From Comamonas antarctica (GTDB lineage Bacteria > Pseudomonadota > Gammaproteobacteria > Burkholderiales > Burkholderiaceae_C): a stretch of 64,000 bases of DNA. Below, in pieces: positions 19,536 to 40,200 of the stretch. The DNA is taken from the NCBI RefSeq assembly GCF_013363755.1, contig NZ_CP054840.1:3279501-3343500 (forward strand), read 5' to 3'. The notes under the pieces are model-generated. The model was not told the origin of the DNA. It did no database searches and saw only the letters and a list, made by a program, of their open reading frames with translations. A program made the translations under genes and the position numbers. Every line of letters begins with the position of its first letter. Position 1 is the stretch's first letter.

Positions 19536-19961
19536 TCAGAGCGCAGGCAGCTCCAGCACCAGCGTCCGGCCCGCGACGTTCAGGCCGGCACGGGCCGCGG
19601 CCGCGATCAATCCCGCATGCAGATCGACATCGTCCAGCTGCACGCTTTGCCCGCTGCGGCGGCAGACGACACGCACGCATGGGGCTTCGTGGCGGGTCCA
19701 TTGCAGCCGGTAGTGCACCTTGCCGGTATCGTCGAGCTCGCGCAGCAGCAGTCTGACGGCATGGAGCCGCTGCGTGATCCGGTAGACCGTGCTCAGGCTG
19801 GTGCGCATGCCGCGGCGGCGCAGTTCACGGAAGATTTCCTCGCTGTTGAGGCGGCGCGGGTCCTGCGCCTCGAGCACCTGCAGCACGCCGATGCGCGCCG
19901 CGGTGGGTGTCACGCCGGCCGAGCGCAGGCGCTGCAGCAGGGTCAGGCTGACGGCGTTCAT
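19536..19961 (-). CDS. Fur-family transcriptional regulator, divergent metal site
   Basis: 141-residue protein with the Fur winged-helix N-terminal domain: LLQRLRSAGVTPTAARIGVLQVLEA, LNSEEIFRELRRRG and SLSTVYRITQRL (recognition helix). The C-terminal dimerisation domain is unusual. Where Fur and Zur carry HHHDH followed by CxxC, this protein reads YRLQWTRHEAPCVRVVCRR, with one His and two separated Cys, and no second CxxC pair near the C terminus. It is the last gene after the putative iron-import operon (97 bases from the DUF4198-like gene), so it may regulate that operon. It precedes the radical SAM gene by only 10 to 49 bases. Confidence 0.8.
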   Translation of the reverse strand: MNAVSLTLLQRLRSAGVTPTAARIGVLQVLEAQDPRRLNSEEIFRELRRRGMRTSLSTVYRITQRLHAVRLLLRELDDTGKVHYRLQWTRHEAPCVRVVCRRSGQSVQLDDVDLHAGLIAAAARAGLNVAGRTLVLELPAL

Positions 19962-20058
19962 GGCCGGTCGGCCGCGTACGCGGCAAATGCAGTGCCTTGC
20001 GGCAGTGGGAAACGGCAAGCGCGCACGCGCGACATGGGGAGGTCTGGCCCGGTCATGG

Positions 20059-20694
20059 TCAGTGCGCCACTTCGAAACTCAAGGTGGCGGTGTGGCGCAC
20101 GTCGTTGTACTTCCTGCCGTCGAGCGTCACCGAGCCGTTGTTCACGCGCGCCGAGACTTCCAGCACGTAGAGGCCTGGAAACGTTGGCACGAAGCTCACC
20201 GTGCCATCCTTGGCCGGCGCCAGCACGCGGCGCCAGCCTTCGGAGGTCTCGACATTGACCTGGCTGGCTGCGACCGGACGGCCCTTGAACACCAGCTGGA
20301 AGGTGTTGCCGCCGGCTTCGGTGGGCACCAGTTCGAGGTCGTTGACGGCTTTGGTTTCCAAGCGACCGGACCTGGCCTGGAAGTAGGTCAGCACGCCATC
20401 GGCTTCGGCGCGCGTGGCGGTGAAGCGCAGGTCGCCGGCATTGGCCGGGGTGAACGCGAAGTGGTTGCCCGCGGTTTCGGCATCCAAGGCCTTGCCGTCG
20501 GGCGCCACCGCCTTGGCGTCGCTCAGCGCGGGCAGCTGCGCCAGCGGCTTGTGCAGTTCGCCGGCAAACACCTGCGCCTGCGCGCCAGTGCGCTGCAGCC
20601 AGAGGTAGTCGGCGTGGGCGTTTTGCACCAGCGCGAGCAGCGCCAGCGTCGGCACGAAGCGCCGTGAAATGGAAAGCAATGCAGAAGTGGTCAT
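20059..20694 (-). CDS. Exported DUF4198-like protein
   Basis: 211-residue periplasmic protein with an N-terminal signal peptide ending near QNAHA, then DYLWLQRTG, the usual start of DUF4198 proteins, and Ig-like beta-rich repeats (FTPANAGDLRFTATR, FVPTFPGLYVLEVSAR). DUF4198 and NikM/NikL-type proteins usually accompany transition-metal uptake systems. It sits 34 bases downstream of the second binding-protein gene at the end of the ABC operon, which fits a metal-related periplasmic role. It is not part of the P. aeruginosa fpv operon as I know it. Confidence 0.65.
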   Translation of the reverse strand: MTTSALLSISRRFVPTLALLALVQNAHADYLWLQRTGAQAQVFAGELHKPLAQLPALSDAKAVAPDGKALDAETAGNHFAFTPANAGDLRFTATRAEADGVLTYFQARSGRLETKAVNDLELVPTEAGGNTFQLVFKGRPVAASQVNVETSEGWRRVLAPAKDGTVSFVPTFPGLYVLEVSARVNNGSVTLDGRKYNDVRHTATLSFEVAH

Positions 20695-20728
20695 TGGAAG
20701 CTTTGGTATGGGTTTGACAGGGCGGCAC

Positions 20729-21592
20729 TCAGCGCGGGCGCAGCGCGTCGACGACCCGCGTGGCGAGGACTTCCAGATCGGCCACCGGGTCCTGGCCATC
20801 GGCGGCCAGCACGACCACGGCAGCGCCCGCATCCGTTGCGGCCTTTGCCAGTTCCGGCGCCAAGGCCTCGTGGTGCAGCACTGCGGCCACGCCCTCGCTG
20901 CGGACCAGCGCCGCCAGCGCCTGCGGTTCATTGCTGCCCGGCACCAGCTCGAGATTGAAGGCCGAAGCCAGATAGTCCAGCCGCGGCGACAGCGACACCA
21001 CCGTGAGGTTGGGCGCGGCCAGCAGCGCGGCTTCGGCCTTGCTGGACAGCGCCACCAGCCGCTGCTTGAGGCCGGCCAGATTGCGCGCAATCGACGGCGC
21101 GTCCCGGGGCGACAGCCGCTCCAGATCGGCGGCGACGATATCGGCCATGCGCCCCAGGTTCACCGGATGCAGCCACGGATGGCTGCCCAGCTCGGCGCCG
21201 GGTTGCAGCGCAATGCCGGGCAGCGCGCCGTCGATCGGCCGCGCGGCGTCGATCTCGACGATGCGGATGTTGGCGCGGCGCGCCAGCGGGTAGAGCGGGT
21301 CCTGCGGCCACAGCGAGCGCAGCGTGATCACCGCATCGGCCCCGGCCGCGGCCTGCGCCAGCGCCTTGGCGCCGCGGCCGTCGAAATAGGCGAGCAGCCG
21401 CGCCGGCGGCAGGCTGGCAGGCGCGGCGCGCGCCACGCTGATGCCGCTGCCTTCGGCCAGTTGCGCGGCCAGGCCATGCGCCACCGGGTGGGCGGCCAGC
21501 ACCTGCACTGCCTTGGCCGGCGCCTGTGCCTGCGCGGCCACGCCCGCCAGCAGCGCCGCGGCGGCCAGCAACAAATTCAACAAGGGTTTCAC
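20729..21592 (-). CDS. Second periplasmic metal-binding protein of the ABC operon (FpvF-like position)
   Basis: 287-residue cluster A-I solute-binding protein with a signal peptide (LLNLLLAAAALLAGVAAQAQA). Conserved landmarks are AHPVAHGLAAQLA near the N terminus, HPWLHPVNLGRMADIVAADL in the middle and LEVLATRVVDAL at the end. It lacks the His-rich loop of zinc-specific ZnuA. The start overlaps the permease stop by four bases. A second binding protein after the permease is the arrangement of FpvF in P. aeruginosa, where FpvC and FpvF work with the same FpvDE transporter. The fpvF link is from gene order and size; identity was not measured. Confidence 0.75.
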   Translation of the reverse strand: MKPLLNLLLAAAALLAGVAAQAQAPAKAVQVLAAHPVAHGLAAQLAEGSGISVARAAPASLPPARLLAYFDGRGAKALAQAAAGADAVITLRSLWPQDPLYPLARRANIRIVEIDAARPIDGALPGIALQPGAELGSHPWLHPVNLGRMADIVAADLERLSPRDAPSIARNLAGLKQRLVALSSKAEAALLAAPNLTVVSLSPRLDYLASAFNLELVPGSNEPQALAALVRSEGVAAVLHHEALAPELAKAATDAGAAVVVLAADGQDPVADLEVLATRVVDALRPR

Positions 21593-22491
21593 GACGGCAG
21601 TCCTTTCAATCCCGGAACCAGGCCGCGCAGGACCGCGGCCAGCATGAATACCGCCCCCGCCACCAGGATGATGGCCGCGCCCGAAGGCAGGGGCAGCGCG
21701 AATTCAATGGGCAGCAAGATGCCCGCGAGCGTGCTGAACGTGGCAACCAGCACGCTGAGCCAGAAGAACCCGCGCAGCGACTGGCTCAACAGCCGCGCCG
21801 CCGCGGCCGGGATCACCAGCAGCGCGCCCACCAGGATCGCGCCAATGACCTTGACCGAAGCCACGGTCACCACGGTCACCAGCACCACGAACAGGTAGTC
21901 CATGGCCTTGACGGGCACGCCGCGCACCGCGGCCAGTTGCGGATTGAAGCTGGCCAGCATCAGCCGGTTGTAGTTGGGCAGGCTCAGCGCCAGCGTGAGC
22001 AGCGCCACCGCGGCCAGCACCGTGAGGTCCTGGCTGTTCACGGTGAGCACCGAGCCGAACAGCACGTTCTCCAGGATGTGGATGTTGATGCGCCCCGACA
22101 GCAGCAGCAGCAGGCTCGCGCCCAGCGCCAGCGACACCGACAGGAATACGCCGATCAGCGTGTCGGGCGTGAGGCCGGTGCGGTTGCGCAGGTAGTTAAG
22201 GCTGATGCCGAACAGCAGGCAGTAGCCGAACAGGCTGCCGTACGGTCCGGTGTAGGGCTCGCCCAGCAGGATGCCGATGGCCACGCCGGTCAGCGCCGAA
22301 TGGCCCACGGCCTCGGAGAAGAACGCGAAGCGCTTGACAACGACCAGCGTGCCCAGGCCGCCCAGCACCGGGCCGATGATCAGCCCGGCCAGCACCGCGT
22401 TGACGACGAAGCCGTAGGCCAGCGCGCCCGGCAGCGCGCCGGCTTCGGCCCAGCCCTGGATGGCGACGCGCAGGGTCTCGAAGAAGTTCAT
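21589..22491 (-). CDS. Metal ABC transporter permease (ZnuB/FpvE family)
   Basis: 300-residue inner-membrane permease of the ABC-3 family with about eight hydrophobic segments. Typical stretches are VVKRFAFFSEAVGHSALTGVAIG near the first cytoplasmic loop and LLVIPAAAARLLSQSLRG toward the C terminus. The frame is open upstream to 22659, but the ATG at 22491 (MNFFETLRVA) gives the family length and a four-base overlap with the ATPase stop. By gene order I take it as the FpvE-like subunit of an iron importer; zinc or manganese cannot be excluded from sequence. Confidence 0.88.
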   Translation of the reverse strand: MNFFETLRVAIQGWAEAGALPGALAYGFVVNAVLAGLIIGPVLGGLGTLVVVKRFAFFSEAVGHSALTGVAIGILLGEPYTGPYGSLFGYCLLFGISLNYLRNRTGLTPDTLIGVFLSVSLALGASLLLLLSGRINIHILENVLFGSVLTVNSQDLTVLAAVALLTLALSLPNYNRLMLASFNPQLAAVRGVPVKAMDYLFVVLVTVVTVASVKVIGAILVGALLVIPAAAARLLSQSLRGFFWLSVLVATFSTLAGILLPIEFALPLPSGAAIILVAGAVFMLAAVLRGLVPGLKGLPS

Positions 22492-23228
22492 GCGGCAGCC
22501 TCCTGCGCCAGGGCGCCGCGCGGACGCGTGGAAAACAGATCGAGCAGAGTCTGCGGCGTCAGCACCTCGCGCGGCGGCCCGTCGAACAGCACGCCGCGGT
22601 TCAGGCCCGTCACATGGTCGGCAAGCCGGCCCACGGCCTCGAGGTCGTGCTCGACCCACAGCACCGTGACGCCGGCCTGCTTCCAGCCGGCCAGCAGCTG
22701 CTCGAACACCTGCGCGCCGGCTTCGTCGAGCGCGGCCATGGGTTCATCGAGCACCAGCAGCGCCGGCGTGGGCACCAGGCCCTGCGCCAGCAGCACGCGC
22801 TGGCGCTCGCCGCCCGACAGCGCGCCCATGCGGCGCTGGCGCTTGCCGGCCATGCCCACGCGCTCCAGCGCCGCGCTGATCTCGGCAACGCGAGCGCGCG
22901 CAAACCCCAGGAACGCAGGCTTGCGCTGGGTCATTGCAGCCATGAAGTCGTCGACCGTCATCGGCAGGCCGGCATCGAAAGCCAGCGCCTGCGGCACATA
23001 GCCCATCACGCCCGGCGCGCCCGGCCATTCGAGCGCGAGGCGCCCCTGGTGCGGCGTCTGGCCCAGCAGCGTCTTGACCAGCGAGCTCTTGCCCGCGCCA
23101 TTGGGGCCGACGATGGCATGCACGCTGCCCGGCGCGACGCGCAGCGAGACATCGCGCAGCACCTGCGTCCGGCCCAGCGTCAGCGCGACGCGCTCGAACA
23201 CGACGGCCGGTCCGTGCACCCGCGTCAT
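22488..23228 (-). CDS. Metal ABC transporter ATPase (ZnuC/FpvD family)
   Basis: 246-residue ATP-binding subunit with Walker A GPNGAGKS, signature [13 protein letters not shown], Walker B ALLVLDEPMAALDE and switch His in VLWVEHDLEAVG. It overlaps both neighbours by four bases, so binding protein, ATPase and permease are translationally coupled. Metal specificity is set by the binding proteins and not visible here. Confidence 0.92.
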   Translation of the reverse strand: MTRVHGPAVVFERVALTLGRTQVLRDVSLRVAPGSVHAIVGPNGAGKSSLVKTLLGQTPHQGRLALEWPGAPGVMGYVPQALAFDAGLPMTVDDFMAAMTQRKPAFLGFARARVAEISAALERVGMAGKRQRRMGALSGGERQRVLLAQGLVPTPALLVLDEPMAALDEAGAQVFEQLLAGWKQAGVTVLWVEHDLEAVGRLADHVTGLNRGVLFDGPPREVLTPQTLLDLFSTRPRGALAQEAAA

Positions 23229-24169
23229 TGGCCGGCCTCGCGGATGGCGCGCACCACGGCGGCGAGATTGCGCGCCGTGTCCTGCTCGAATTTTTCCCGG
23301 GTGTACTCGCCGTACGAGATATGCGTCAGCGCGTAGAGGCGCACGCCGGTCTCGCGGCGGATGGTGTCGACATAGGCAGAAGGGAAGTCCATCTCCGAGA
23401 AGATCACCTTGACGTCCAGATTGCGCAATTGGTCTATGGTCGTCTTGAGCTGCGCCGGGCTGGGCTCGATGCCGTGCGCGGGTTCGACCACGGCCGTGAC
23501 TTCGAGGCCGAATTCGCGCAGCAGGTAGTCATAGGCGCCATGGATGGTGGCCACGCGCAGGTTGCGCCCCGGCGCCTGGGCCAGGCCGGCGAGCGCATCG
23601 GCGCGCAGCTTGCGCAGCTTCTGGCCATAGGCGCGCGCATTGTTGCGGTAGGCCTCGGCGTTGGCCGGATCGAGCTTGCCGAGTTCGCGCGCAATGGTGT
23701 TGACCTGGGCAATCGAGGCCGCCACCGAGAGGAAGGTGTGCGGATTCACGACCTGGCCCGAGCTGTCCTTGCCGCTGCGCCCGGCGTTCGCCGCCGCGCC
23801 CACGGCGGCCAGCAGCGGCACCTGGGCGTTGGCCTCGATCACCGGCAGCCGGGGCTTGCTGCTGGCGGCGATCATGCGCTCGGCGAAGTCGTCGTGGCCG
23901 ATGCCGTTGAGCACCACCACGTCAAGGCCGCCGATGCGCTTGATGTCTTCGGCGCGCGGCTCGTAGGCATGCGGATTGAAGCCGGCCGGAATCAGCGGCA
24001 CGACCTCGGCCAGGTCGCCGACGATATTCGTGACATAGCTGTAGTACGGATGCAAGGTGATGCCGATGCGCAGCCGGCGCGCCTGCGCGGCCAGCGGGAA
24101 CAGCGCCAGCACGGCAGGGGCGGCCAGGCCGGCTTGCAGCAAACGGCGGCGGCTGAAATGGGGGGACAT
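23225..24169 (-). CDS. First periplasmic metal-binding protein (FpvC-like position), Tat signal
   Basis: 314-residue cluster A-I binding protein. The N terminus SRRRLLQAGLAAPAVLALF is a twin-arginine-type signal. Metal ligand positions are visible: His in GFNPHAYEP, His in VVNPHTFLS, His in TIHGAYDYL and an acidic residue in FSEMDFPSAY. There is no His/Asp-rich loop as in zinc-specific ZnuA, which favours iron or manganese. I start at the ATG at 24169 and not at 24199 because the Tat motif should be close to the N terminus. In P. aeruginosa the protein in this position, FpvC, acts as a ferrous-iron chaperone. Confidence 0.85.
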   Translation of the reverse strand: MSPHFSRRRLLQAGLAAPAVLALFPLAAQARRLRIGITLHPYYSYVTNIVGDLAEVVPLIPAGFNPHAYEPRAEDIKRIGGLDVVVLNGIGHDDFAERMIAASSKPRLPVIEANAQVPLLAAVGAAANAGRSGKDSSGQVVNPHTFLSVAASIAQVNTIARELGKLDPANAEAYRNNARAYGQKLRKLRADALAGLAQAPGRNLRVATIHGAYDYLLREFGLEVTAVVEPAHGIEPSPAQLKTTIDQLRNLDVKVIFSEMDFPSAYVDTIRRETGVRLYALTHISYGEYTREKFEQDTARNLAAVVRAIREAGQ

Positions 24170-24232
24170 GTACGGCTCCAGCGTAAAGGCGCGCTGCACG
24201 TCGGCAGCGGCAAGAAATCAAGGGAAAAGGAT

Positions 24233-24847
24233 CTAGCGCGGCTGGCGTGTCACGCCCGCGTCGAAGCGCGCGACCACCTGGCGCCAGCCGGCGCGCGTGA
24301 GCTGCGCATCGTCCAGCGCGGTGGGCGCCACGCGGGCATTGCGGTGCAGCCAGATATCGGGCTCGGCGTCGGACGCGTGCGCGGCATCGGCAGCGCCATG
24401 CGCGCGGCCATGCGCGGCCTGAACGCGCATCAGCACCGAACCGGCAACGGCGCTGTCCGCGCTCAGCCCCACATAGGCCTGCGTCCGGCCATCGGCCACG
24501 AGCGACCATGCATGGCCGCCGCGCTGCACGCTGCTTGCATCCTCGGCGAACGGCGGCAGGCCCAGCTCCGACAAAGCCGCCACGGCGGGCAGCCTGGCAT
24601 GCGGGCCGCGTTCGGCCTCGATCTCATCGAGCGCGATGCGCAGATCGGCATGGATGCCCTGCTCGGCCGCCGTCAGGTCGCGCCGCGCATCGAGCTGGTG
24701 TGCGGCCACCGCATGGCTGTGCTGTGGCGCGCCGCGCAGCGTGACCACGGTCCCGGCGATGGCCAGGACCAGCGAGCAGCCGGCCAGCACCGCCAGGGTT
24801 TCATGGCCCGCTCCCGCCGGGCGCACCAGTTGCGTGGTGGCGCTCAT
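24233..24847 (-). CDS. DUF6162-like single-helix membrane protein (FpvK-like position)
   Basis: 204-residue protein with one N-terminal membrane helix (ETLAVLAGCSLVLAIAGTVVTL) and a periplasmic part. A His-containing stretch follows the helix (PQHSHAVAAHQ), then LDEIEAERGP, SELGLPPFAED and GHAWSLVADGRTQAYVGLS, with DIWLHRNARV near the end. I match it tentatively to DUF6162, a family seen beside metal ABC genes. It overlaps the upstream small gene by four bases and is 63 bases from the binding-protein start. Size and position match FpvK of P. aeruginosa. Confidence 0.6.
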   Translation of the reverse strand: MSATTQLVRPAGAGHETLAVLAGCSLVLAIAGTVVTLRGAPQHSHAVAAHQLDARRDLTAAEQGIHADLRIALDEIEAERGPHARLPAVAALSELGLPPFAEDASSVQRGGHAWSLVADGRTQAYVGLSADSAVAGSVLMRVQAAHGRAHGAADAAHASDAEPDIWLHRNARVAPTALDDAQLTRAGWRQVVARFDAGVTRQPR

Positions 24848-25185
24848 CGCGCCGCGCCCGCGACGATCTCGGCATGGTCGACCTCGACCACATGGCCCGG
24901 GCCCGCATCGAACAGCACGAAGAAATCGCCCTTGGGCTTCTTGAAGCTCAGCAGCGAGCTTTTGTCGAGCTTGCCCGACACCAGCACCTTGTCGTCATAG
25001 CTCATCACATCGAGGCGCACGCCCGGGGCCAGCGAACCGTCGGAAAACGCGCCGCGGCACTGGATGGTGTCGGCCGAGACCTGGCGGCATTCGACCACGG
25101 GGTTGTGCGCCAGCGCCGGTGCCGCCACCGACAGCAGCCATGCGCCGGCCGCCAGTGCGCGGCGGACAGGGTGAGGAAATGTCAT
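24844..25185 (-). CDS. Small exported protein (FpvJ-like position)
   Basis: 113-residue periplasmic protein with a signal peptide (LAAGAWLLSVAAPALA) followed by HNPVVECRQVSADTIQCRG, which has two Cys eight residues apart, and a beta-sandwich-like remainder (LDVMSYDDKVLVSGKL, FFVLFDAGPGHVVEVDH). It overlaps both neighbours by four bases. A His directly after the cleavage site and a nearby Cys could bind metal. No named family was recognised; the fpvJ equivalence rests on order and size. Confidence 0.6.
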   Translation of the reverse strand: MTFPHPVRRALAAGAWLLSVAAPALAHNPVVECRQVSADTIQCRGAFSDGSLAPGVRLDVMSYDDKVLVSGKLDKSSLLSFKKPKGDFFVLFDAGPGHVVEVDHAEIVAGAAR

Positions 25186-26066
25186 TGGGATGGCCTTTCT
25201 ATTGCGCCTTGCGGTGCCGCCGGCCCCGCTTCAGGCTTGGCTTCGCGTTGCTGGAACCAGGCGACCGTGGCCGGCGACACATCCGCCAGGCGCACCTGCG
25301 CCTGGTGCATCTCGCCGTCCTTGCCCACCACCGTGAGCCACAGGCTGCTTCCGGCCGTGGTGTTGGCCGGCAGCTGGATGTCGACGTTGCGGTCCCAGCG
25401 CGTGCCCTGCAGCACGATGCCCGCGGCGCGCAGCGAGCGCGGCTTGTTGACCTTGAGATAGGCGGCGCGGATCTGCGCGTCGCAGTCCTCGCAAAAGCGC
25501 ACCTGGTAGGACTTCATGGGGATGTCCATGGCCACCAGTTTGGGCACGTCATGGTCGCGGTCCGCGAGGCGGAAGCTCCACGGCCCGACCTGGCCCGCGA
25601 ACGCATCGGCGCGCAGCAGCGGCGCGATCGGCGTGGCCTGCAACGCCAGCAGGTAGACCAGCGGCACCGCAGCCAGCAGCGCCGCGGCAAGCCAGCGGCG
25701 CGCAGTGCGCCGGGGCGCCACCGGCATTTCGGCAGCAGCGCCGGGTTTCGCGGCCTTGGCCGGGCGCGCGGGCCTGGCATGGTCCACCGGCCGCAACGGC
25801 CACTTGGGAAACGCAAACACCAGCGCCAGCGCGGCAATCGTCAGCCAGCCCAGCCACAGCGTGATGCCCACGCCCGAGCCCAGGTAGGCGATGCCCAGCG
25901 CGAGCGACACGGCCAGCAGCAGCCAGCCGGCAACGCGCGCCAGCAGGCGCCATTGCGGCGCGGGCAGCCGGCCCAGCAGATGCTCGGCATGGCGTTCGGT
26001 GGCCAGCGCCAGCGCGGCAAAGCCCGCCAGGCTGATCACCAGGATGGCCAGATGCAACAGCGTCAT
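25182..26066 (-). CDS. DUF3325-type membrane protein with periplasmic CxxC domain (FpvH-like position)
   Basis: 294-residue inner-membrane protein. The first 90 residues carry three hydrophobic helices and match DUF3325, normally a small stand-alone protein. A fourth helix at about 123-143 leads to a periplasmic domain with C192-x-x-C195 (RFCEDCDAQIR) preceded by DRDHDVPK. The CxxC could bind metal or take part in electron transfer. The ATG at 26066 overlaps the DUF3649 stop by four bases; the open frame to 26216 is a shadow. The length fits FpvH, needed in P. aeruginosa for iron release from pyoverdine. Confidence 0.65.
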   Translation of the reverse strand: MTLLHLAILVISLAGFAALALATERHAEHLLGRLPAPQWRLLARVAGWLLLAVSLALGIAYLGSGVGITLWLGWLTIAALALVFAFPKWPLRPVDHARPARPAKAAKPGAAAEMPVAPRRTARRWLAAALLAAVPLVYLLALQATPIAPLLRADAFAGQVGPWSFRLADRDHDVPKLVAMDIPMKSYQVRFCEDCDAQIRAAYLKVNKPRSLRAAGIVLQGTRWDRNVDIQLPANTTAGSSLWLTVVGKDGEMHQAQVRLADVSPATVAWFQQREAKPEAGPAAPQGAIERPSQ

Positions 26067-26365
26067 GCCGCACCTCCCGACTGGAGCAGCCAGGCCAGTG
26101 CGGCCAGCACGCCCGTCACGGACACCACGCCGATCCAGGCGCGCGTGGCGCTGCGCGCCATGAACACCCAGATCGCGACCAGGCTGTAGATCGCAAAGCT
26201 CAGCATGCTGGCCCACAGCATCGCCTGGGCCTGAGGCCCGGGCCAGACCCGCGCCAGCAGCACCGTCGCCGCCGAGGCCAGCGCATAGCCGCCCATGGCC
26301 GCTGCCATCACGCGCGAGGCCACGGCCAGGCGATAGCTCAGCGAAAGAGAATGGGCCTTGCTCAT
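26063..26365 (-). CDS. DUF3649 small membrane protein
   Basis: 100-residue protein with three hydrophobic helices (AVASRVMAAAMGGYALASAATVLL, AMLWASMLSFAIYSLVAIWVFMA and GVVSVTGVLAALAWLL). It matches DUF3649, a family that goes with PepSY reductases and DUF3325 in siderophore-utilisation loci. Four-base overlaps link it to the PepSY gene before it and the DUF3325 gene after it. Confidence 0.75.
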   Translation of the reverse strand: MSKAHSLSLSYRLAVASRVMAAAMGGYALASAATVLLARVWPGPQAQAMLWASMLSFAIYSLVAIWVFMARSATRAWIGVVSVTGVLAALAWLLQSGGAA

Positions 26366-28020
26366 GCCACGCTCCCTTCGGTCACTGGCCGTGCGGCAGC
26401 GGCCCCTGCCGCTTTCCTTGCCGCGCGCGACGGGTCCAACCGGCGCTTGACCTTGACCGCCATCAGCGCCAGCAGCGCGGCCATGCCCCACATCGTCAGG
26501 TCGAAACCCGCCAGCACCCAGTCGCCCGCGCGCAGCGTGTTGAGCAGATGCTTGTCGGTGGTCAGGGCATTGATGACCGGCACCAGCGCATACGCCGCGC
26601 AGCCGGCCCGGAACAGCTCGATCCAGGCGCGGTGCAGCGGCCGCGCGAGCGCATAGAACAGCGCGCCGAGCCAGACCGCAAACAGCGTGTGCACCTCCCA
26701 CGCGGGGCGGTCGGTGATGTCCAGCGGCAGCAGACGGTTGGCAAGAAAGTACGCGGCCACGGCCATGGGCAGTCCGGCAATGGTCGCGACGTTGAGCGTC
26801 TCGACCAGGCGCACGCCGAACTGCTCGGTGGCTTCAAGGCCGCTGCCCAGGTGGTGCCTGCGGCGCTTGACGGTCCAGAGCACCATGCCGGTGCCTATCA
26901 TCGCGCAGCCCAGCAGGCCGGCGAAGAAATACACCCAGCGGCCCCAGGCGCCGACGAACAGGCCTTCATGCAGGTTCAGCATCACGGTCTGCGTGGTGCG
27001 CGCCGCGCCGCCGGTCTTGGGCTCGGGCGCCAGCGGCGCGCCGCTGCGCGCATCAAAGCGCAGCGTTTGCGGGCGCTGGAAATCCAGCGCGCTGCCGTTG
27101 ACCCGCGTCAGCGTCACGGCCTGTACCTCGCCCGCGCCCTGGTTGTGCATCACGCCGATGGTGCGCACCTGGCCCGGTCCCCAGACGGCTTCGGCCTGCG
27201 CCACCAGCGGCAGCAGCGGGGTCCCGGGGCGCGAGATGGCCACCGGCTTGCGGTTGAACTCGGGAAAGATCTCGGCGAAGTACGGCTTGCGGCTTTGCTG
27301 GTCGCTGCCGTAGATCGCGTTGATGCCCGCGGGCATGTAGGTGAACAGGAAGAACACCAGCCCGCTGTAGGTGATCATCAGGAAGAACGGCAGCGCCATC
27401 ACGCTCACCGCGTTGTGCGCGTCCAGCCAGCTGCGCTGGCCCTTGCCCGGGCGGAAGGTGAAGAAGTCCTTGAAGATCTTCTTATGCGTGATGACCCCGG
27501 TGACGATGGCCATCAGCATCAGCATGGTGCAGACGCCAACGATGCGGATGCCCCAGTCGAAGTCCATGTAGTGCAGCAGGTAATGCATCTGGTAGAGCGT
27601 GCGCCCGCCCGCGGTGGCGCGCGGCTCGATGCCCGAGGGCAGCACCTGGCCCGTGGCCGGATCGAGCTTCTCGCTGCCGCTCGGGCCGCGGTCATGGCCG
27701 TCGGGCGGCATCTCGTCCCAGCCGATGCCGAACTCCTGCCAGGTGCGCGACTGCAGAGACTCGTGCGGCAGGTTGATGCGCCACGCTGCGGCGCCCGGCG
27801 CGACCTTCTGCAGCCGGTCGAGCGCGAGTTCGAACGATGCGGCGCGGTTCTCGAGCGCGCGCGCCTGGACCATGGGCAGCTCGGGCTGCATCCAGCGCGT
27901 GATCTCGATCTGGAAATAGCCGGGCGTGCCGGTGACGAAGACGAAGAACAGCACCCAGCCGACGATCAGGCCGGTCCAGGTGTGCAGCCAGGAAGTGCAC
28001 TGGCGAAGCGAGGAAAACAT
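26362..28020 (-). CDS. PepSY-type inner-membrane iron reductase (FpvG-like)
   Basis: 552-residue membrane protein of the PepSY-associated family (PiuB/FpvG type). It has a first helix with an adjacent His (WLHTWTGLIVGWVLFFVFV), a periplasmic PepSY part, helices with conserved His (THKKIF; DAHNAVSVMALPFF), a second PepSY region, and two more helices around LHEGLFVGAWGRWVYFFAG and WTVKRRRHH. In P. aeruginosa FpvG reduces the iron in ferripyoverdine in the periplasm. The ATG at 28020 is the family start; the frame upstream overlaps the STN gene. Thirteen bases separate it from that gene. Confidence 0.82.
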   Translation of the reverse strand: MFSSLRQCTSWLHTWTGLIVGWVLFFVFVTGTPGYFQIEITRWMQPELPMVQARALENRAASFELALDRLQKVAPGAAAWRINLPHESLQSRTWQEFGIGWDEMPPDGHDRGPSGSEKLDPATGQVLPSGIEPRATAGGRTLYQMHYLLHYMDFDWGIRIVGVCTMLMLMAIVTGVITHKKIFKDFFTFRPGKGQRSWLDAHNAVSVMALPFFLMITYSGLVFFLFTYMPAGINAIYGSDQQSRKPYFAEIFPEFNRKPVAISRPGTPLLPLVAQAEAVWGPGQVRTIGVMHNQGAGEVQAVTLTRVNGSALDFQRPQTLRFDARSGAPLAPEPKTGGAARTTQTVMLNLHEGLFVGAWGRWVYFFAGLLGCAMIGTGMVLWTVKRRRHHLGSGLEATEQFGVRLVETLNVATIAGLPMAVAAYFLANRLLPLDITDRPAWEVHTLFAVWLGALFYALARPLHRAWIELFRAGCAAYALVPVINALTTDKHLLNTLRAGDWVLAGFDLTMWGMAALLALMAVKVKRRLDPSRAARKAAGAAAARPVTEGSVA

Positions 28021-28033
28021 GCGCGGCTCCGTC

Positions 28034-28483
28034 TCAGGAAAGGGCTTGCGGGTCGAACGCCGGGCGCTGCGCGCCCTGCGTCTGCGCTGCCTTGAGCGTG
28101 AACGAACGCGCGCGCGCCGTGGCAATGGCCAGGCCGGTGTGCGCCAGCAGGCGCTCGAGCGCTTCCTGCGGCGTGAACATGCCGTAGACCGCCTCGGCCT
28201 GCAGGCCGGCAAGAAGCGCTTCCTGGAACAGCACCTGCGAATGCGTCTGCAGGCCGAAGGCGCGCAGCGCGCCCAGCAGCGGCTGGGCCGGAATGTTGAC
28301 GGGCACGCGCAGCGGCTGCTCGTGCGCCGCCTGCGGCTGCCCCAAAGCGCCGAAGCCCGGCTGCGCGGCCGCCGGCAGCAACGGGCTGCAGCCCAGCACC
28401 GCCATCACCGCGAGCGCGCGATACCTGCGCCGCACCCTTCCCGCGAGGGGACCCGCCCGCCCGCTGCCCTGACCTTGCCGCAT
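28034..28483 (-). CDS. Stand-alone STN domain periplasmic protein
   Basis: 149-residue exported protein: signal peptide (YRALAVMAVLGCSPLLPAAAQ), a linker, then one complete STN (secretin and TonB N-terminal) domain, VPVNIPAQPLLGALRAFGLQ to GLAIATARARSFTLKAA. In TonB-dependent transducers this domain contacts FecR and is followed by plug and barrel. Here the protein ends about 20 residues later with a stop and a new ribosome site. It is either a detached signalling domain or the remnant of a lost receptor. No plug or barrel sequence is present in any frame before the PepSY gene. The start at 28483 is chosen for the signal peptide. Confidence 0.72.
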   Translation of the reverse strand: MRQGQGSGRAGPLAGRVRRRYRALAVMAVLGCSPLLPAAAQPGFGALGQPQAAHEQPLRVPVNIPAQPLLGALRAFGLQTHSQVLFQEALLAGLQAEAVYGMFTPQEALERLLAHTGLAIATARARSFTLKAAQTQGAQRPAFDPQALS

Positions 28484-28707
28484 TGCACTGCTTCCGTCTT
28501 CAAGCGCCACCCCGGCAGCGCTGCAGCGGGAAACATCAGCCCGTTGCAAGCACTGCACGCCCAGGATGCGCGCGGTGTTCGTGGCTGTTGGCGGGGACCG
28601 AAGTGCAGCTTCGGATCCGTGGCTGGCAGCCGGAGCACGAAAGGATTTCCGCGCCCTCAATAGGTAGAACGGAGATCGGCACGGACATGGAACCCGCGAA
28701 GTGAAAA

Positions 28708-28726
28708 ATAATGAGAATTATTTTTA
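28708..28726. promoter_or_regulatory. Fur box upstream of the STN/FpvG-like operon
   Basis: AATAATGAGAATTATTTTT matches the 19-base Fur consensus GATAATGATAATCATTATC at 14 positions and is the most A+T-rich spot nearby. It lies between fecR and the STN gene, so it likely controls the minus-strand operon from the STN gene onward by iron through Fur. Confidence 0.75.
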
Positions 28727-28822: not shown

Positions 28823-29863
28823 TCACCGCCGCGCGATCCGCCAGTTGCCGTCGGCCGTCTTGTCCACGCGCACCGGCACCACATCCGGCAACGCCTGCAG
28901 GAAGTCCTCGGCCGAGGAGGTCATGAGGAACCCCGAGATGGTGAGGCTGCCCAGGCCCGGATCGGCAATCGTGATGGTCTTGCCCAGGTAGCGGCCCAGC
29001 TCCTGCGCGATGTCCTGCAGCGAGGTGCGGCTGAACTGGATCTGCCCGGTGCGCCAGCGCCCCACCTCCTCGGGCGCGACACGCAGGCTGGCATAGCGGC
29101 CGGTGGATGGGTCGATGTCCACGCCCGTGCCCGCGCCCAGCAGCAGCACGGGGTCGGCCGGCTGGCTGCGGCGCGGTTGCACCTCGACCTTGCCTTCGAG
29201 CACCTGCACCGCCAGCTGCTGCGGCGCGGCGCGCACGTTGAATGCCGTGCCGACCACGCGCACCCGGCTGTCGGCACTGTCGATGGTGAACGGCCTGGAG
29301 GCATCGGCGGCAACGCGGAAGAACGCCTCGCCGCCGGCCATTGCCACCTCGCGCCGGCGCGGGTAGTAGCGCACCTGCACGCTGGTGCCGGTGTTCAATG
29401 CGATCTGCGAGCCATCGGGAAGATCGACGCTGCGCGTCTCGCCCGGCCCGGTGGCCAGTGCGAGCTGGTAGCCCGCGGTGTTGTCCCAGCGGAACCAGCC
29501 GGCCACGGCCAGCGCCATGCAACCGGCCGCCAGCACCGGGGCCAGGCTGCGCCGGCGCGCCGGCGTGAACCAGGGCCTGCGCGCTGCCTGGCGTGCCGCC
29601 GGCGGCACTGCGGGCACCGCCGCCGCACGCCGGCCATAGGTTTCGGGCCGGTGCTCGGGCAGCTGGCCTGCGAGCTGCACGGTCTGGCGCATGGCATCCA
29701 TGATGTCGCGGCGCCGCGGGTCGGCCTCCAGCCAGGCTTGCATTTCGCGTTCGTCGGCAGCCGTCCAGCCGGGCTGCTCGCGGCGCACGTACCAGCCGGC
29801 CACGGCCCGGTGCATATGCAGCATTGCGCTGAGATCGGTGCCTGGCGGCAGAGGCTTGGTCAT
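28823..29863 (-). CDS. FecR-family anti-sigma regulator
   Basis: 346-residue inner-membrane signal transducer that holds and activates the adjacent ECF sigma factor. The N-terminal cytoplasmic DUF4880-like region is AVAGWYVRREQPGWTAADEREMQAWL. One membrane helix lies at about residues 106-124 (LAPVLAAGCMALAVAGWF). The periplasmic FecR domain follows (SVDLPDGSQIALNTGTSV, VRVVGTAFNVR), and the C-terminal part resembles an STN domain (SLQDIAQELGRYLGKTITI). The start overlaps the fecI stop by four bases. Confidence 0.9.
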   Translation of the reverse strand: MTKPLPPGTDLSAMLHMHRAVAGWYVRREQPGWTAADEREMQAWLEADPRRRDIMDAMRQTVQLAGQLPEHRPETYGRRAAAVPAVPPAARQAARRPWFTPARRRSLAPVLAAGCMALAVAGWFRWDNTAGYQLALATGPGETRSVDLPDGSQIALNTGTSVQVRYYPRRREVAMAGGEAFFRVAADASRPFTIDSADSRVRVVGTAFNVRAAPQQLAVQVLEGKVEVQPRRSQPADPVLLLGAGTGVDIDPSTGRYASLRVAPEEVGRWRTGQIQFSRTSLQDIAQELGRYLGKTITIADPGLGSLTISGFLMTSSAEDFLQALPDVVPVRVDKTADGNWRIARR

Positions 29864-30483
29864 GCTTCGTTCCCGCCGCCATCGGCGGCCTCTTCTTGCG
29901 CGCTGAGCGCGGCATGCACGGGCCGCATCTGTTCGCTGCTGGTGTAGCTCACGCGCAGCTGGCAGTAGGCGAGCGCGCGGCTCAGGTGCTTGACCACCAT
30001 GCGCGTGGAGATTCCCATGCGCCTTGCGGTTTCCTCGACCGTGTGGCCTTCGATGCGGTGCAGCGTGAAGGCTTCGCGCTGGCGCGCGGGCAGCTCCCGG
30101 ATGGCCTGGTCGAGACGGCCCAGCATCTGGTACTGGCCCGCATGTTCATCGGTATGGTCGGCGTCGGTTTGCAGTCCCGACGCGTCCAGGTCCTCCTCGA
30201 GCGCGACGCGCTGCAAGCCCTCGCGCTGCGCGCTCTTGCGCCAGCCGTCGATGGCAATGTTGCGCGCGGCGCGGCGCAGGTAGGGCTGCTCGTCGGCCGG
30301 CGCAATGGTCTTGCCGGTCGCGGCAAGGCGCGCAAATACCTCCTGCGTCGCGTCCTCGACCTCGGCGGCCGAGCCGAAATAGCGCCGCAACATGCGCGCC
30401 AGCGGAGCACGCCAGCGCGCATACAGCTGGCCCAGCTGTTCGCCGGGCGCCAGTTCGGGCTTCGGCCCGCCCTCCCCGTTCAT
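29860..30483 (-). CDS. FecI-type ECF sigma factor
   Basis: 207-residue sigma-70 family member of the iron-starvation (FecI) group. Region 2 is LARMLRRYFGSAAEVEDATQEVFARL and region 4 is ELPARQREAFTLHRIEGHTVEETARRMGIS. There is an unusually long N-terminal and inter-domain region with GLQTDADHTDEHAG. The ATG at 30483 is chosen because region 2 begins about 30 residues later; the frame to 30657 is a poor extension. It should transcribe the gene of a cognate TonB-dependent transducer, which is not in the window. Confidence 0.88.
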   Translation of the reverse strand: MNGEGGPKPELAPGEQLGQLYARWRAPLARMLRRYFGSAAEVEDATQEVFARLAATGKTIAPADEQPYLRRAARNIAIDGWRKSAQREGLQRVALEEDLDASGLQTDADHTDEHAGQYQMLGRLDQAIRELPARQREAFTLHRIEGHTVEETARRMGISTRMVVKHLSRALAYCQLRVSYTSSEQMRPVHAALSAQEEAADGGGNEA

Positions 30484-34209: not shown

Positions 34210-37200
34210 TCAGAAGGCCCAGCGCACGCGCACCTGCGCCGAGTGGTCGCGGTTGCCGCTGCCGAACTCGCCCTTGTAGCCCAGCACCAGCGCCGCGTTG
34301 CGGCTCAGCTCCAGTTCCGCCTCCAGGCCCAGCAGCGCGGTGTTGCGCGCCAGCGGCACGCCGGCCACCGTGAAGTTCTGTCCACCTTCGAAGGCCATGC
34401 TGGTGCGGTTGCTGACATCGCCAAACGCATGGCGCCAGCCCAGCGTGCCGCGCAGACGGCCTTCGCTGCCGCCGAGCTTGAAGTCGCTGTGCATGCGCAG
34501 GCCCAGCGTGCCGCTGCCCAGGTCGTCGCGGCTCGCGTCGCCGCGCAATGCCGCGAAGCCGCCGCGCTCCTGGAAGCCACGGTTGCGCTGCTCGCCCAGG
34601 CTGATGCCGGCAAACGGCTCGATGCCGACCTTGCCGTACTGGCCCAGTGCATAACCGACTTCGGCGAACAGCTGCGAGGTGCCGGCGTGGTAGTCGGCCT
34701 TGAGCGTCTGCTCCAGCGCGGCGACATGGCGTTCAGACGCGATCTCATGCCAGGTATAGGCCAGGCCGCCCATCACGTTCAGCTGGCCCACGCCCGCGCC
34801 GAAGCTCTTGCCGCCATAGACCGCGGCACTGTAGCTGTCGACCTTGCCGGTGGAGCTGCGGTCGGCAACGCGCGCATCGGTGCGCGTATAGCCCAGCGAG
34901 CCGCCCACGCGCCAGCCGCTGCCCGCGACTTCGCTGTCGCCGCCCAGGAACAGGCCGCCGGTGCTCTGCTTCAGGCGCGCGGCATTGCCGTCGCCGGCAT
35001 AGCTTTGCCAGTGGCCCACCACTTCCGCCCACATCGGCAGGGCCTTGGTCGAGGGCCAGGCCGAGGCCGGCAGCGGGCCGTCGGACTGCGCGATCGGTGC
35101 GCCGGGGCGCAGATTGGCGGTCAGGTTGCTGTGCAGGTGGCGCAGCGAGCTGTTGCCGAACAGCTGCGCGCCACTGCGCATGCTGCCTTGCGCCGTGGAG
35201 TGCACTTCGCCCGACAGGCTCTCGAACACCGCGGCGGGAGTGCCTTCGGGCAGCGACTGGACGAAGCGGTACAGCGCGCTGTCCGGCTGCAGGCTTTGCA
35301 CGGCGTTGGCCACGCCGGTCTGGTTGCGGGTCTGCGCGAGATCGGCGAACTCGATCGGGCGGGTGGGCGTGCCGGGATCGGCCGGGTCCACGGGCAGCTG
35401 CTTGCGCTCGAGCAGCAGCGACAGCGAGTTGGCGTTGTACTGCAGCTTGGGGTCGAGGTAGGCGTAGTTCGAGGACACGGTATCGAACTGGCCCTGCAGG
35501 CTGGCGGCCTGGAGCAGGGTGTAGGTCTTCGAGACGTCAAAACCTGCCCCCGGACCGACGTGCAGCAGGCCGCCGGCAAGCTGCACCGTGCCGCTCACCT
35601 GCAGCCGGTCGCTGGTGCCCGAATCGGGATCCGCGTGGAACTGGTAGGTCGAGCCCGGCGCGAAGCGCAGATCGCCATTCACGGTCAGCGTGCCGTAGCT
35701 GTGGCCCGAGACGCTGATGCTGCCCGGAGCAATGATGGCCCCGCTGGCCAGCGTGGTCGAGCCTACGCTGCCGCTGCCGGTCAGGCTCGCGCCGCCCGCC
35801 ACATGCAGGCTGCCGCCCAGCACCGCGCCCGCGCCGATGGCCAGCGTGCCGGCATCGACTGCCGTGCTGCCGGTGTAGGCGCTGCCGTTGCCGGTGAAGG
35901 CCAGCGTGCCCGCGCCGGTCTTGGTCAGGCTGCCATTGCCCGCCAGGGCCTGGGCCAGCGTGGCATCGCCAGCCTGATTCAGCTCCAGCGCGGCGTTGTT
36001 GGTGATCGCGCCGCTGCCCAGCTTGGCAACGGACGCCACCAGCCGGCCGGCCTCGATGACCGTGCCGCCCGTCGAGGTATTGGTGCTGGTGAGCGTCAGC
36101 GTGCCCGCACCCGATTTGACCAGCTGGCCGCTGCCCGCCAGCGACTGCGCCAGCGTGGCATCGAGCGCCTGGTTCAGCTCCAGCGTCGCGTTGTTGACGA
36201 TTGCGCCGCGGCCCAGATGGCCCGCCGCGGCAATCAGCCGGCCCGCCTCGATGCGCGTGCCGCCCGTCGAGGTGTTTTCACCGCTGAGCGTCAGCGTGCC
36301 CGCGCCCGACTTGATCAACTCGCCCGTGCCGCCGATGGCTTGCGCCAGCGTGGCATCGTTGATCTGCGTGAGTTCCAGCGCGGCGTTGTTGCTGATCGCG
36401 CCGCTGCCCAGGTTGCCAGCGCCGGCGATCAGCCGGCCGGCCTCGATGGTCGTGCCGCCCGTCGAGCTGTTGGCGCCGGTGAGCGTCAGCGTGCCCGCGC
36501 CCGACTTGATCAGCTCGCCCGTGCCGCCGATGGCCTGCGCCAGCGTGGCATCGGTGGACTGCTTGAGTTCCAGCGCGGCGTTGTTGCTGATCGCGCCGCT
36601 GCCCAGGTTGCCAGCGCCGGCGATCAGCCGGCCGGCCTCGATGGTCGTGCCGCCCGTCGAGGTGTTGGCGCCGGTGAGCGTCAGCGTGCCCGCGCCCGAC
36701 TTGATCAGCTCGCCGCTGCCGCCAATGGCCTGCGCCAGCGTCGCATCGTTGATCTGTTTGAGTTCCAGCGCGGCGTTGTTGCTGATCGCGCCGCCGCCCA
36801 GGTTGCCAGCCCCGGTGATCAGGCGGCCGGCTTCGATGGTCGTGCCGCCCGTCGAGTTGTTGGCGCCGGTGAGCGTCAGCGTGCCCGCGCCCGACTTGAT
36901 CAGCTCGCCCGTGCCGCCGATGGCTTGCGCCAGCGTGGCGTCGGTCTCCTGCTTGAGCTCCAGCGCGGCGTTGTTGCTGATCGTGCCGCTGCCCAGGTTG
37001 CCAGCCCCGGCGATCAGCCGGCCGGCTTCGATGGTCGTGCCACCCGTCGAGGTGTTGGCGCCGGTGAGCGTCAGCGTGCCCGCGCCCGACTTGATCAGTT
37101 CGCCCGTGCCGCCGATGGCTTGCGCCAGCGTCGCATCGTTGATCTGCTTGAGTTCCAGCGCGGCGTTGTTGCTGATCGTGCCGCTGCCCAGGTTGCCAGC

Positions 37201-40200
37201 GCCGGCAATCAGCCGGCCGGCTTCGATGGTCGTGCCGCCCGTCGAGGTGTTGGCGCCGGTGAGCGTCAACGTGCCCGCGCCCGACTTGATCAGCTCGCCC
37301 GTGCCGCCAATGGCTTGCGCCAGCGTGGCATCGTTGATCTGCTTGAGTTCCAGCGCGGCGTTGTTGCTGATCGCGCCGCTGCCCAGGTTGCCAGCGCCGG
37401 CAATCAGCCGGCCGGCTTCGATGGTCGTGCCTCCGGTCGAGCTGTTGGTGCCGGTGAGCGTCAGCGTGCCCGCGCCCGACTTGGTCAGATCGCCCGTGCC
37501 GCCGATGGCCTGGGCCAGCGTGGCGTCGGTCTCCTGCTTCAGTTCCAGCGCGGCGTTGTTGCTGATCGTGCCGCTGCCCAGATTGCCGGCCCCGGCGATC
37601 AGCCGGCCTGCTTCGATCAGCGTGCCCCCTGTCGACGTATTGGCGCCGGTGAGCGTCAGCGTGCCCGCGCCCGACTTGGTCAGGTCGCCCGTGCCGCTGA
37701 TGGCCTGGGCCAGCGTGCCGTTGCCGGCCTGGTTCACTTCCAGCGCGGCATGGTTGGTGATCGCGCCGCTGCCCAGGCTGTCGCTGGAGGCGATCAGGCG
37801 GCCGGCGCTGATGGTGGTGCCGCCGCGGTAGTCGTTGGCGCCGGTCAGGGTCGTCGTGCCCGTGCCCTGCTGGTGCAGGCTGCCGCTGCCGGTGATCGCA
37901 TTGCTCAGCGTGACCGCATCGCTGCGGTTGATGCCCAGCGTTGCGTTGTTGATCACATTGCCGCTGCCCAGCGCACCCGTGGTGCCGCCATTGCCCACCT
38001 GCAGCGTGCCGGCTTCGATGGTCGTGGTGCCGGTGTAGCGGTTGTCGGCCAGCAGCACGGTGGTGCCCGTGCCCTTCTGGACCAGATTGCCGCTGCCGGA
38101 GATCTCATTGTCCACATGCAGCAGGTTGCTGCGGTTGAAGGCCAGTGTGCCTTCGTTGGCGACGCTGCCCGTGCCCAGCGTGCCGGCCATGCCGCCATTG
38201 CCGACCTGCAGCGTGCCGGCCTCGATCTGCGTGCCGCCGGTGTAGCCGTTGTCGGCCGACAGCACCAGCGTGCCGGCGCCCTTCTTGCTCAGCGTCTTGC
38301 CGTTCCAGCCGGCCGCGCCATTGGCGCCCTGGTCGTCCAGCGCCACGCCCACGTCGAACTGCTCGCCGGCGCCGGCCAGCGTGAAGCTGCCCTGGGCCAG
38401 GTTGTTGTTCGCGCTCCAGTTCAGGCCGTAGCTGGCCAGGTACTGCTTGCCATCCGCGGACTTGCCGGTCGTCAGCGTGAGGTAATCCACCTCGCCGCTG
38501 AAGCCGCCCACATGCACCTTGGCGAAATCGCCGGTGATGCCGTTGTTGGTGCTGACCAGCACGCGGTCGAGTTCGCTGCGCGCGCCAATGCCGCTGAGGT
38601 TGAAGCCCACCTCGGCGCCCACTTGCAGGCTGTCGGCCACCAGCGACGGCTGCGCGCCGCGCGACTGGATGGACAGCTGTGCGCCCTGCAGCAGTTCGAC
38701 GGCCTTGCCGACGCTCAGCGTGGCCGCGGTGGCAATCTCCAGGCCCGCGCCGCCAGCGACCTGGATGTTCCCGGCCAGGGTATTGCCGGGCGAGAACTGC
38801 GCATCCGCGTCGGCGAATTTGAGGCTGCCGGCCGACACCAGCGTGTCGCCCGCATAGCTGTTGCGGCCCGTCAGCGTCAGCGTGCCGGCGCCGGTCTTGG
38901 TCAGACCGCCGCTGCCGGCGATGGCCTGGGTCAGCGTGCCATCGGCCGCCTGTTGCAGTTCGAGCGCGGCGTTGTTGGTGATGGTGCCGCTGCCCAGATT
39001 GGCCGAGGACGCCACCAGCCGGCCCGCATCGATGTGCGTTGCGCCCGTCGAGGTGTTGACGCCGGTCAGCGTCAGGGTGCCCGCGCCGGTCTTGCTCAGC
39101 TCCCCGCTGCCGGCAATGGCCTGGGCCAGCGTGGCATCGGACTCCTGCTTCAGCTCCAGCGCGGCGTTGTTGGCGATGATGCCGCTGCCCAGGTTGGCAG
39201 CGGATGCCACCACCCGGCCCGCGATGATGGCCGTGCCGCCGGTCGAGCTATTGGCGCCGGTGAGCGTCAGCGTGCCCGCGCCCGACTTGGTCAGGTCGCC
39301 GCTGCCGCTGATGGCCTGTGCCAGCGTGGCATCCTGGGCCTGGTGGATTTCCAGCGCGGCATGGTTGGTGATGGCGCCGCTGCCCAGGTTCGCCGCGGAG
39401 GCGATCAGCCGGCCCGCTTCGATGGTCGTTGCGCCCGTGGAGGTGTTGCTGCCCGCGAGCGTCAACACCGCGCTGCCCGATTTGATCAGGTCGCCGCTGC
39501 CGCTGATCGCCTGTGCCAGCACGGCATTGGTCGACTGCCGGATCTCCAGCGCCGCATTGTTGACGATCGCGCCGCTGGCCAGGCTGGCCACCGAGGCCAC
39601 CAGCCGGCCCGCCTCGATCGTGGTGCTGCCCGTGGCGGTGTTGCTGCCGGTCAGGGTCAGCGTGCCGGTGCCCGACTTGATAAGCTGGCCGCTGCCGCTG
39701 ATGGCCTGGGCCAAGGTGGCTTCGCCGGCCTGGTTCAGTTCCAGCTGCGCCATGTTGATGATCGCGCCACTGGCCAGGTTGGTCGCGGAAGCCACCAGGC
39801 GGCCGGACGCAATGCCGGTGAGGCCGGTGGAGGTGTTGGTGCCCGTGAGCGTCAGCGTGCCGCTGCCGGACTTGAGCAGGTGGCCGCTGCCGCTGATGTC
39901 CTGCGCCAGCACCGCGTTGCTGTCTTGCTTCAGCTGCAACGCTGCGTCGTTGACGATGGCGCCGCTGCCCAGGTTGGCCGTGGAAACCACCAGTTCGCCG
40001 TCCACGATGGTCGTGCCGCCCGTCGACGTATTGGCACCGGTGAGCGTCAGCGTGCCGGCGCCGGTCTTGGTCAGTTCGCCGCTGCCGCCGATAGCCTGGG
40101 CCAGGGTGGCATCGCTTGCCTGCTTCAGTTCCAGCGCGGCGTTGTTGGTGATCGCGCCGCTGCCCAGATTCGCGGCGGAAGCCACCAGGCGGCCGGCATC

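Follow-up and report, generated by a model that had tools for sequence, protein, structure and literature searches.

A Fur- and FecI-associated gene unit of Comamonas antarctica joining Fpv iron-release orthologues to a PepSY protein of another family and a free-standing STN domain

What would a gene set resembling the ferripyoverdine iron-release operon of Pseudomonas aeruginosa do in Comamonas antarctica, and how would it be controlled? We analysed a stretch of 64,000 nucleotides from this organism (NZ_CP054840.1, positions 3,279,501 to 3,343,500 of the forward strand; hereafter the window), in which fourteen codirectional genes occupy the minus strand from 30483 to 19536. Their order is FecI, FecR, STN, PepSY, DUF3649, DUF3325::FpvH, FpvJ, FpvK, FpvC, FpvD, FpvE, FpvF, DUF4198-like and Fur-family. 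A preliminary description made from the sequence had named twelve of them, and open reading frames and domain matches placed all twelve on the minus strand in the order it gave, with seven of the joints being 4-base overlaps as it had reported; its twelve-gene extent fell short, having overlooked FecI and FecR, which lie upstream on the same strand. The FecI-to-DUF4198 order recurs in three other genomes, those of an Acidovorax (L006), a strain named Pantoea sp. 18069 (L007) and a Hydrogenophaga (L008), and a chance arrangement can therefore be excluded. Our literature search returned no description of this gene arrangement among the matches listed and, judged solely from such searches, it is undescribed. 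We consider it likely that the genes form a Fur- and extracytoplasmic function (ECF) sigma-controlled operon whose products release iron from a ferric, probably foreign, siderophore in the periplasm and import the resulting Fe2+.

To compare the unit with Pseudomonas, named genomes were scanned with an alignment of DUF6162, the FpvK family, and the best 80 of the 422 encoded relatives were retained, comprising L006, L007, L008, a Pollutimonas locus (L009) and 76 Pseudomonas loci. Gene content of the Pseudomonas loci was scored by tblastn within the fetched flanks, using best-segment identities. All 76 matched the window proteins FpvJ (24844-25185, small and exported; 53-64% identity), FpvK (24233-24847; 53-58%) and FpvC (23225-24169, a metal-binding periplasmic protein; 72-77%), 75 matched the ABC ATPase FpvD (22488-23228; 70-75%) and the ABC permease FpvE (21589-22491; 81-83%), and 74 matched the second periplasmic binding protein FpvF (20729-21592; 47-54%). 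Including the Pollutimonas locus (L009-L085, 77 loci) widens these ranges to 53-65% for FpvJ, 53-61% for FpvK, 70-76% for FpvD (76 loci), 81-84% for FpvE (76 loci) and 47-57% for FpvF (75 loci). The Fpv genes found are collinear on a single strand in every Pseudomonas locus and the full set G-H-J-K-C-D-E-F is present in 73; the missing matches fall on L049 and L057 and, for PepSY, on L068, which are short or cut-off loci. Queries with STN, FecR, FecI, DUF3649, DUF4198 and Fur gave no match within the fetched flanks of the 76 loci. In two Pseudomonas loci inspected for context a diaminobutyrate transaminase gene lies downstream, and in one of them (L046) a peptide synthetase gene lies upstream, which we take to be pyoverdine genes.

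By sequence identity and gene order, FpvJ, FpvK, FpvC, FpvD, FpvE and FpvF of the window are orthologous to the genes for iron release from pyoverdine. In P. aeruginosa, according to PMC6954188, this release requires FpvGHJKCDEF together, several of which interact. FpvK carries a DUF6162 match (PF19659) of 179 bits; among 61 relatives 2 have a match above the cut-off of this family, and among 399 Burkholderiales genomes 3 do, the C. antarctica genome being counted in both, with one further match below the cut-off in each set; the Fpv module is rare and patchy among them. The best PDB matches of FpvC are 6ru4 and 6r3z (473 bits), deposited as "probable adhesion protein" and presumably PA2407/FpvC, and all six histidines mutated to glycine in the PDB variant 6r6k are kept in the window protein. 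FpvJ shows a weak similarity to NikL (NF058648, 40.6 bits against a cut-off of 100). Its presumed mature N-terminus carries a histidine within the motif AHNP in 12 of 12 rows, a count that leaves out alignment A5, whose rows had been preselected on this motif, and the protein could bind metal through this N-terminal histidine.

The first half of the unit departs from Pseudomonas. The PepSY_TM protein (26362-28020; 226 bits) had been taken as the counterpart of FpvG in the preliminary description, an equation we rejected: identity to FpvG is only 22-26%, the protein has 552 residues versus 391-431 in the FpvG rows used, and in the PepSY tree it falls not with FpvG but in a clade of 14 with PepSY proteins linked to DUF3649 and DUF3325 (support 100/99). 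Its closest relatives outside this group come after a receptor gene in L130-L133. Four histidines are conserved in all seven aligned rows; conserved PepSY_TM histidines of this kind are reported to bind heme (PMC13038864), and known PepSY_TM proteins are described as heme-mediated ferrisiderophore reductases (PMC13038864, PMC10866019). The window protein is thus a probable periplasmic ferric reductase. The adjacent gene encodes a small DUF3649 membrane protein (26063-26365; PF12365, 31.5 bits); two other cassettes of this genome likewise have DUF3649 next to PepSY, and we take DUF3649 to be the partner of this PepSY family. In one such cassette (L097, C1:866-873 kb), DUF3649-PepSY-DUF3325 is followed directly by a MacA-MacB-channel pump, and our genome search for receptor barrels found none nearby.

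The next gene (25182-26066) encodes an N-terminal DUF3325 domain (PF11804, residues 6-90) fused to FpvH, which consists of a membrane helix and a CxxC domain. The Pseudomonas operon encodes FpvH on its own, as a CxxC protein about 180 residues long, and it aligns solely with the C-terminal part of the window protein, which is why the size of this gene departs from that operon. Both cysteines of the CxxC domain are invariant in 20 of 20 rows, and the predicted structure has helices at residues 2-144 and a beta-sandwich from about residue 156. The two families are encoded apart in other compared loci, DUF3325 in L086, L097 and L132 and FpvH in L009, L128, L129 and Pseudomonas, and of 300 Burkholderiales genomes, 27 have a DUF3325 match above the cut-off. 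The earlier claim that order and sizes follow the P. aeruginosa operon accordingly holds for the order J-K-C-D-E-F and fails for the sizes of the PepSY and DUF3325 genes, while the proposed likeness of the middle small genes to FpvH, FpvJ and FpvK was borne out, FpvH as a domain of the fusion and the other two in all 76 Pseudomonas loci.

Upstream of the PepSY gene lies a gene (28034-28483) for a predicted exported protein of 149 residues with a signal-peptide-like start (judged by eye) and an STN domain, the signalling domain of TonB-dependent transducers, without plug or barrel. The reading frame stops 18 residues past the Pfam STN match, which at 20.7 bits is below the cut-off of 28.4. In a phmmer search against the PDB, HasR was the best match (E 6.8e-6), followed by the signalling domains of PupB, FpvA, PupA and FemA and by weaker matches to FoxA and FecA (E 0.06 to 0.8); the 14 matches at E values of 1 or below comprise TonB-dependent receptors and signalling domains of such receptors, with no secretin among them. 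A search of a collection of 5.8 billion proteins, with candidates limited to 0.55 to 1.75 times the length of the query, gave 17 matching clusters, three of which appear to sit with FpvK. The free form also occurs in L006, L007 and L008, some of which are among the 17 clusters, and more distant relatives of the locus have a full receptor in the slot held here by STN. STN is the least conserved gene of the unit, with a ratio of nonsynonymous to synonymous substitution rates (dN/dS) of 0.39-0.55 over the full gene in three comparisons; over 80 core codons the ratio is 0.17-0.31 in six comparisons, three of which, those with L008, have dS above 1. Because of this core ratio and the recurrence of the free form, the protein is probably functional rather than debris.

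The closest precedent is VreA (PA0674) of P. aeruginosa, an exported, barrel-less STN domain at a sigma/anti-sigma locus, as the window protein is predicted to be. VreA is described as having an extra TolA/TonB-like C-terminal domain and a role in virulence-gene regulation (PMC2729926), whereas the window protein has the STN domain alone and is encoded in an iron-release operon. With the Fec, Fox, Fpv and Pup systems the locus shares a FecI-FecR pair, a transducer signalling domain and a Fur-like site adjoined by a candidate promoter of the FecI type; it differs in that this domain is encoded on its own, as a predicted exported protein with neither plug nor barrel, and has no receptor gene nearby. 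A free transducer signalling domain is reported to bind and protect the anti-sigma factor in P. aeruginosa (PMC11637429).

How might transcription of the unit be controlled? The first gene encodes a FecI-type ECF sigma factor (29860-30483; Sigma70_r2 and r4_2 Pfam matches), whose orthologue occupies the equivalent place in L006, L007 and L008, and it overlaps by 4 bases the gene for a FecR-type anti-sigma factor (28823-29863; FecR 77.6 bits, plus FecR_C). The Pfam FecI and FecR domains are above cut-off, the NCBIfam FecI models match below theirs and the FecR equivalog reaches 95.7 bits versus a cut-off of 385. Upstream of STN we found a Fur-box-like perfect palindrome, AATAAT-N4-ATTATT (28707-28722), which has a single match in the window and none in 100 dinucleotide shuffles. 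It is perfect in L006, has one mismatch in L007 and was not seen in L008. Against a 19-base Fur consensus it scores 14/19, the top of the window, but shuffled windows also yield scores of at least 13/19, on average 0.45 per window over 20 shuffles. Fur boxes upstream of Pseudomonas fpvG were considered as further support and dismissed: across 75 loci the best 19-mers score 8-15/19, 71 of them at 10-12.

Twelve bases downstream of the palindrome starts the element GGTTCC-N15-TCCGTTCT, followed by a conserved downstream block (28653-28694, minus strand), which we read as a candidate FecI-type ECF promoter. The exact core stands at the equivalent place in L006, L007 and L008, and in L130 and L131 a GGTTCC element with a looser partner was seen by eye upstream of the receptors. 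Allowing up to three mismatches, the block occurs once in the C. antarctica genome, which led us to discard its genome-wide use. A leader peptide gene between FecR and STN was also discarded, the short frame ending differently in the four loci (by eye), as was a riboswitch, Rfam yielding one chance-level match; we favour an ECF promoter over both as the reading of the block. The leader that follows the candidate promoter (28483-28652, minus strand), compared by eye with L006, L007 and L008, shows an apparent hairpin in which changes are paired, together with an invariant GGCTGCCAGCC; we found no fitting Rfam family.

Where would the siderophore come from, and how would it enter? A search of the genome found neither a condensation domain of non-ribosomal peptide synthetases (NRPS), the marker of peptide-synthetase siderophore genes, nor an IucA/IucC domain, other siderophore routes not having been searched. 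The organism therefore probably makes no NRPS or NRPS-independent (NIS) siderophore and is likely to borrow one, plausibly one that differs from pyoverdine. The genome encodes 26 receptor barrels, none of them in the window; the nearest, at C1:3485975, is about 142 kb outside. The suggestion that the operon is self-contained was thus not upheld, since the window has no TonB receptor barrel, and it also lacks the downstream pump of L006-L008. The best candidate for the outer-membrane step is a receptor at C1:2737920 with STN, plug and barrel, 72% identical to the receptor of L130; a genome of the same genus (G026) holds a 74% relative. An aromatic amino acid lyase gene lies near the C1:2737920 receptor.

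The observations to be accommodated are gene content, orthology, conserved order, the candidate promoter, the Fur-like site and the selection on the STN domain. We infer the single transcription unit, the substrate, the electron flow, the metal and the direction of signalling from gene order, orthology and what has been published on relatives. In the pathway that would result, a TonB receptor encoded elsewhere would admit the ferrisiderophore, and the PepSY reductase, DUF3649 and the DUF3325::FpvH fusion would deliver electrons to the iron. FpvJ and FpvK would assist its release, FpvC would hand Fe2+ to FpvDE, and FpvF would handle the empty siderophore. The STN protein would substitute for a receptor signalling domain, binding FecR and gating FecI, which would transcribe the genes from STN to FpvF. 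The locus is best read as a variant Fpv system whose signalling protein lacks a barrel, for which VreA is the precedent. It is conceivable, though rather doubtful, that the free STN domain reports to FecR the arrival of a ferrisiderophore at, or its reduction by, the PepSY-FpvH complex and not receptor occupancy; if so, one sigma system would serve any receptor that delivers a suitable siderophore.

Standard annotation would make the ABC genes a ZnuABC-type importer of zinc (or manganese) among unrelated neighbours. Pfam ZnuA and ABC-3 domains do match, and AztABC and MntA/MntC are the top NCBIfam matches, yet these NCBIfam matches are all under their cut-offs (AztA 153.7/220, AztB 139.2/280 and AztC 130/350 bits), as are the Znu models (ZnuA 57.5/268, ZnuB 100.8/284 and ZnuC 131.6/306 bits). 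The permease identity and fixed gene order shared with the Fpv cluster, together with the Fur-like, iron-type regulatory setting, point away from zinc, and the genome has another ABC-3 system at C2:511007, whose binding protein carries a histidine-rich loop, besides two further weak ABC-3 matches. With the Fpv orthology, the unmet cut-offs and this separate histidine-rich system in hand we rejected zinc import, which we regard as extremely improbable, in agreement with the initial view of the ABC part as an Fpv module. That the system instead reduces and imports another metal complex (copper, nickel or cobalt) by the same chemistry seems unlikely.

A more serious competitor concerns the signal, which might come from an ordinary receptor in trans, such as that at C1:2737920, leaving the STN protein as a damping competitor or the remnant of a lost receptor. 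Such a receptor does exist, overproduced free signalling domains are reported to block signalling in Pseudomonas (PMC11637429), and the low conservation of STN would fit. However, in the open reading frame list of its locus (L144) the C1:2737920 receptor adjoins two FecI- and FecR-looking genes of its own, the STN core is under purifying selection, with the caveat on dS given above, and free STN proteins are met again in L006, L007, L008 and the 17 protein clusters, which are partly from the same genomes. We therefore hold signalling in trans to be possible but the less probable account, and retain the STN protein as the putative transducer.

Comparison with related loci shows how the parts have been combined. 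The window, L006, L007 and L008 have FecI-FecR-free STN-PepSY-DUF3649-DUF3325::FpvH-FpvJKCDEF-DUF4198. In L130 and L131 the order is FecR-receptor-PepSY-DUF3649-DUF3325::FpvH-FpvJ, with FecI seen in L130 and the L131 stretch ending inside FecR; FpvK and FpvCDEF were not found in the fetched stretches, the rest of those genomes not having been searched. L132 and L133 have FecI-FecR-receptor with STN-PepSY-DUF4198-DUF3649-DUF3325-DUF4198-MacA-MacB-outer-membrane channel-Fur, and no Fpv genes within the fetched stretch. L128 and L009 carry FpvGHJKCDEF with a receptor nearby, and in L129 a receptor end-DUF4198-MacA-MacB-channel-Fur-FpvGHJKCDEF lies on one strand. The L130 and L132 receptors gave Pfam STN matches of 24.1 (below cut-off) and 41.7 bits, plus plug and barrel; those of L131 and L133 were assigned by length and position.

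A three-gene efflux pump resembling the PvdRT-OpmQ type, MacAB with an outer membrane factor (OMF), accompanies the genes in L006-L008, L129, L132 and L133 and is absent from the window, where the ABC ATPases are 31-40% identical to the pump MacB. It lies directly downstream of the operon in L007 and L008 (identities of 72, 66 and 65% for L008); in L006, whose contig breaks off within MacB, MacA (92%) and the start of MacB (97%) are present. A DUF4198 relative precedes the pump also in L129, L132 and L133. In L007 the pump is followed by a Fur gene and a radical-SAM gene, both of which come directly after DUF4198 in the window (70 and 86% identity). Loss of the pump at this place in the window lineage is the simplest explanation, gain in the others being the alternative. 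The nearest MacB relative in the C. antarctica genome (74%, C1:869792) lies inside the 866-kb PepSY cassette. The L007 contig (NZ_CACSJA010000001.1) is recorded as Pantoea; its locus is comamonad-type, closest to that of Acidovorax, and the record is perhaps misnamed.

At the end of the unit, the DUF4198-like exported protein (20059-20694) matches PF10670 at 26.7 bits, below the cut-off of 34, and the last gene (19536-19961) encodes a divergent Fur-superfamily regulator (PF01475, 45 bits) whose orthologue is the L007 Fur gene noted above. In an alignment with six relatives, the CxxC pairs of several of them are not kept and no HHDH motif was seen; the metal response of this protein may therefore differ from that of Fur. 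Elsewhere in the window, 34210-45273 (minus strand) encodes a type V autotransporter-like protein of 3,687 residues, which has an extended signal peptide and carries 32 PATR passenger repeats.

The locus presents the Fpv pathway as modular: the half concerned with Fe2+ import and chaperoning (HJK-CDEF) is coupled to a different PepSY reductase. By uniting two otherwise separately encoded families, the DUF3325::FpvH fusion suggests a testable role, as reductase partners, for DUF3325 and DUF3649. The transporters for iron freed by the PepSY reductases FhuB of B. cenocepacia and FoxB of P. aeruginosa are described in PMC10866019 as still unidentified; in the window a probable PepSY reductase of a related kind shares an operon with a candidate transporter. 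In the 2024 model of cell-surface signalling presented in PMC11637429 the signalling domain is cleaved; the free STN protein offers a naturally occurring equivalent of that domain, and would thereby allow the model to be tested without engineered fragments.

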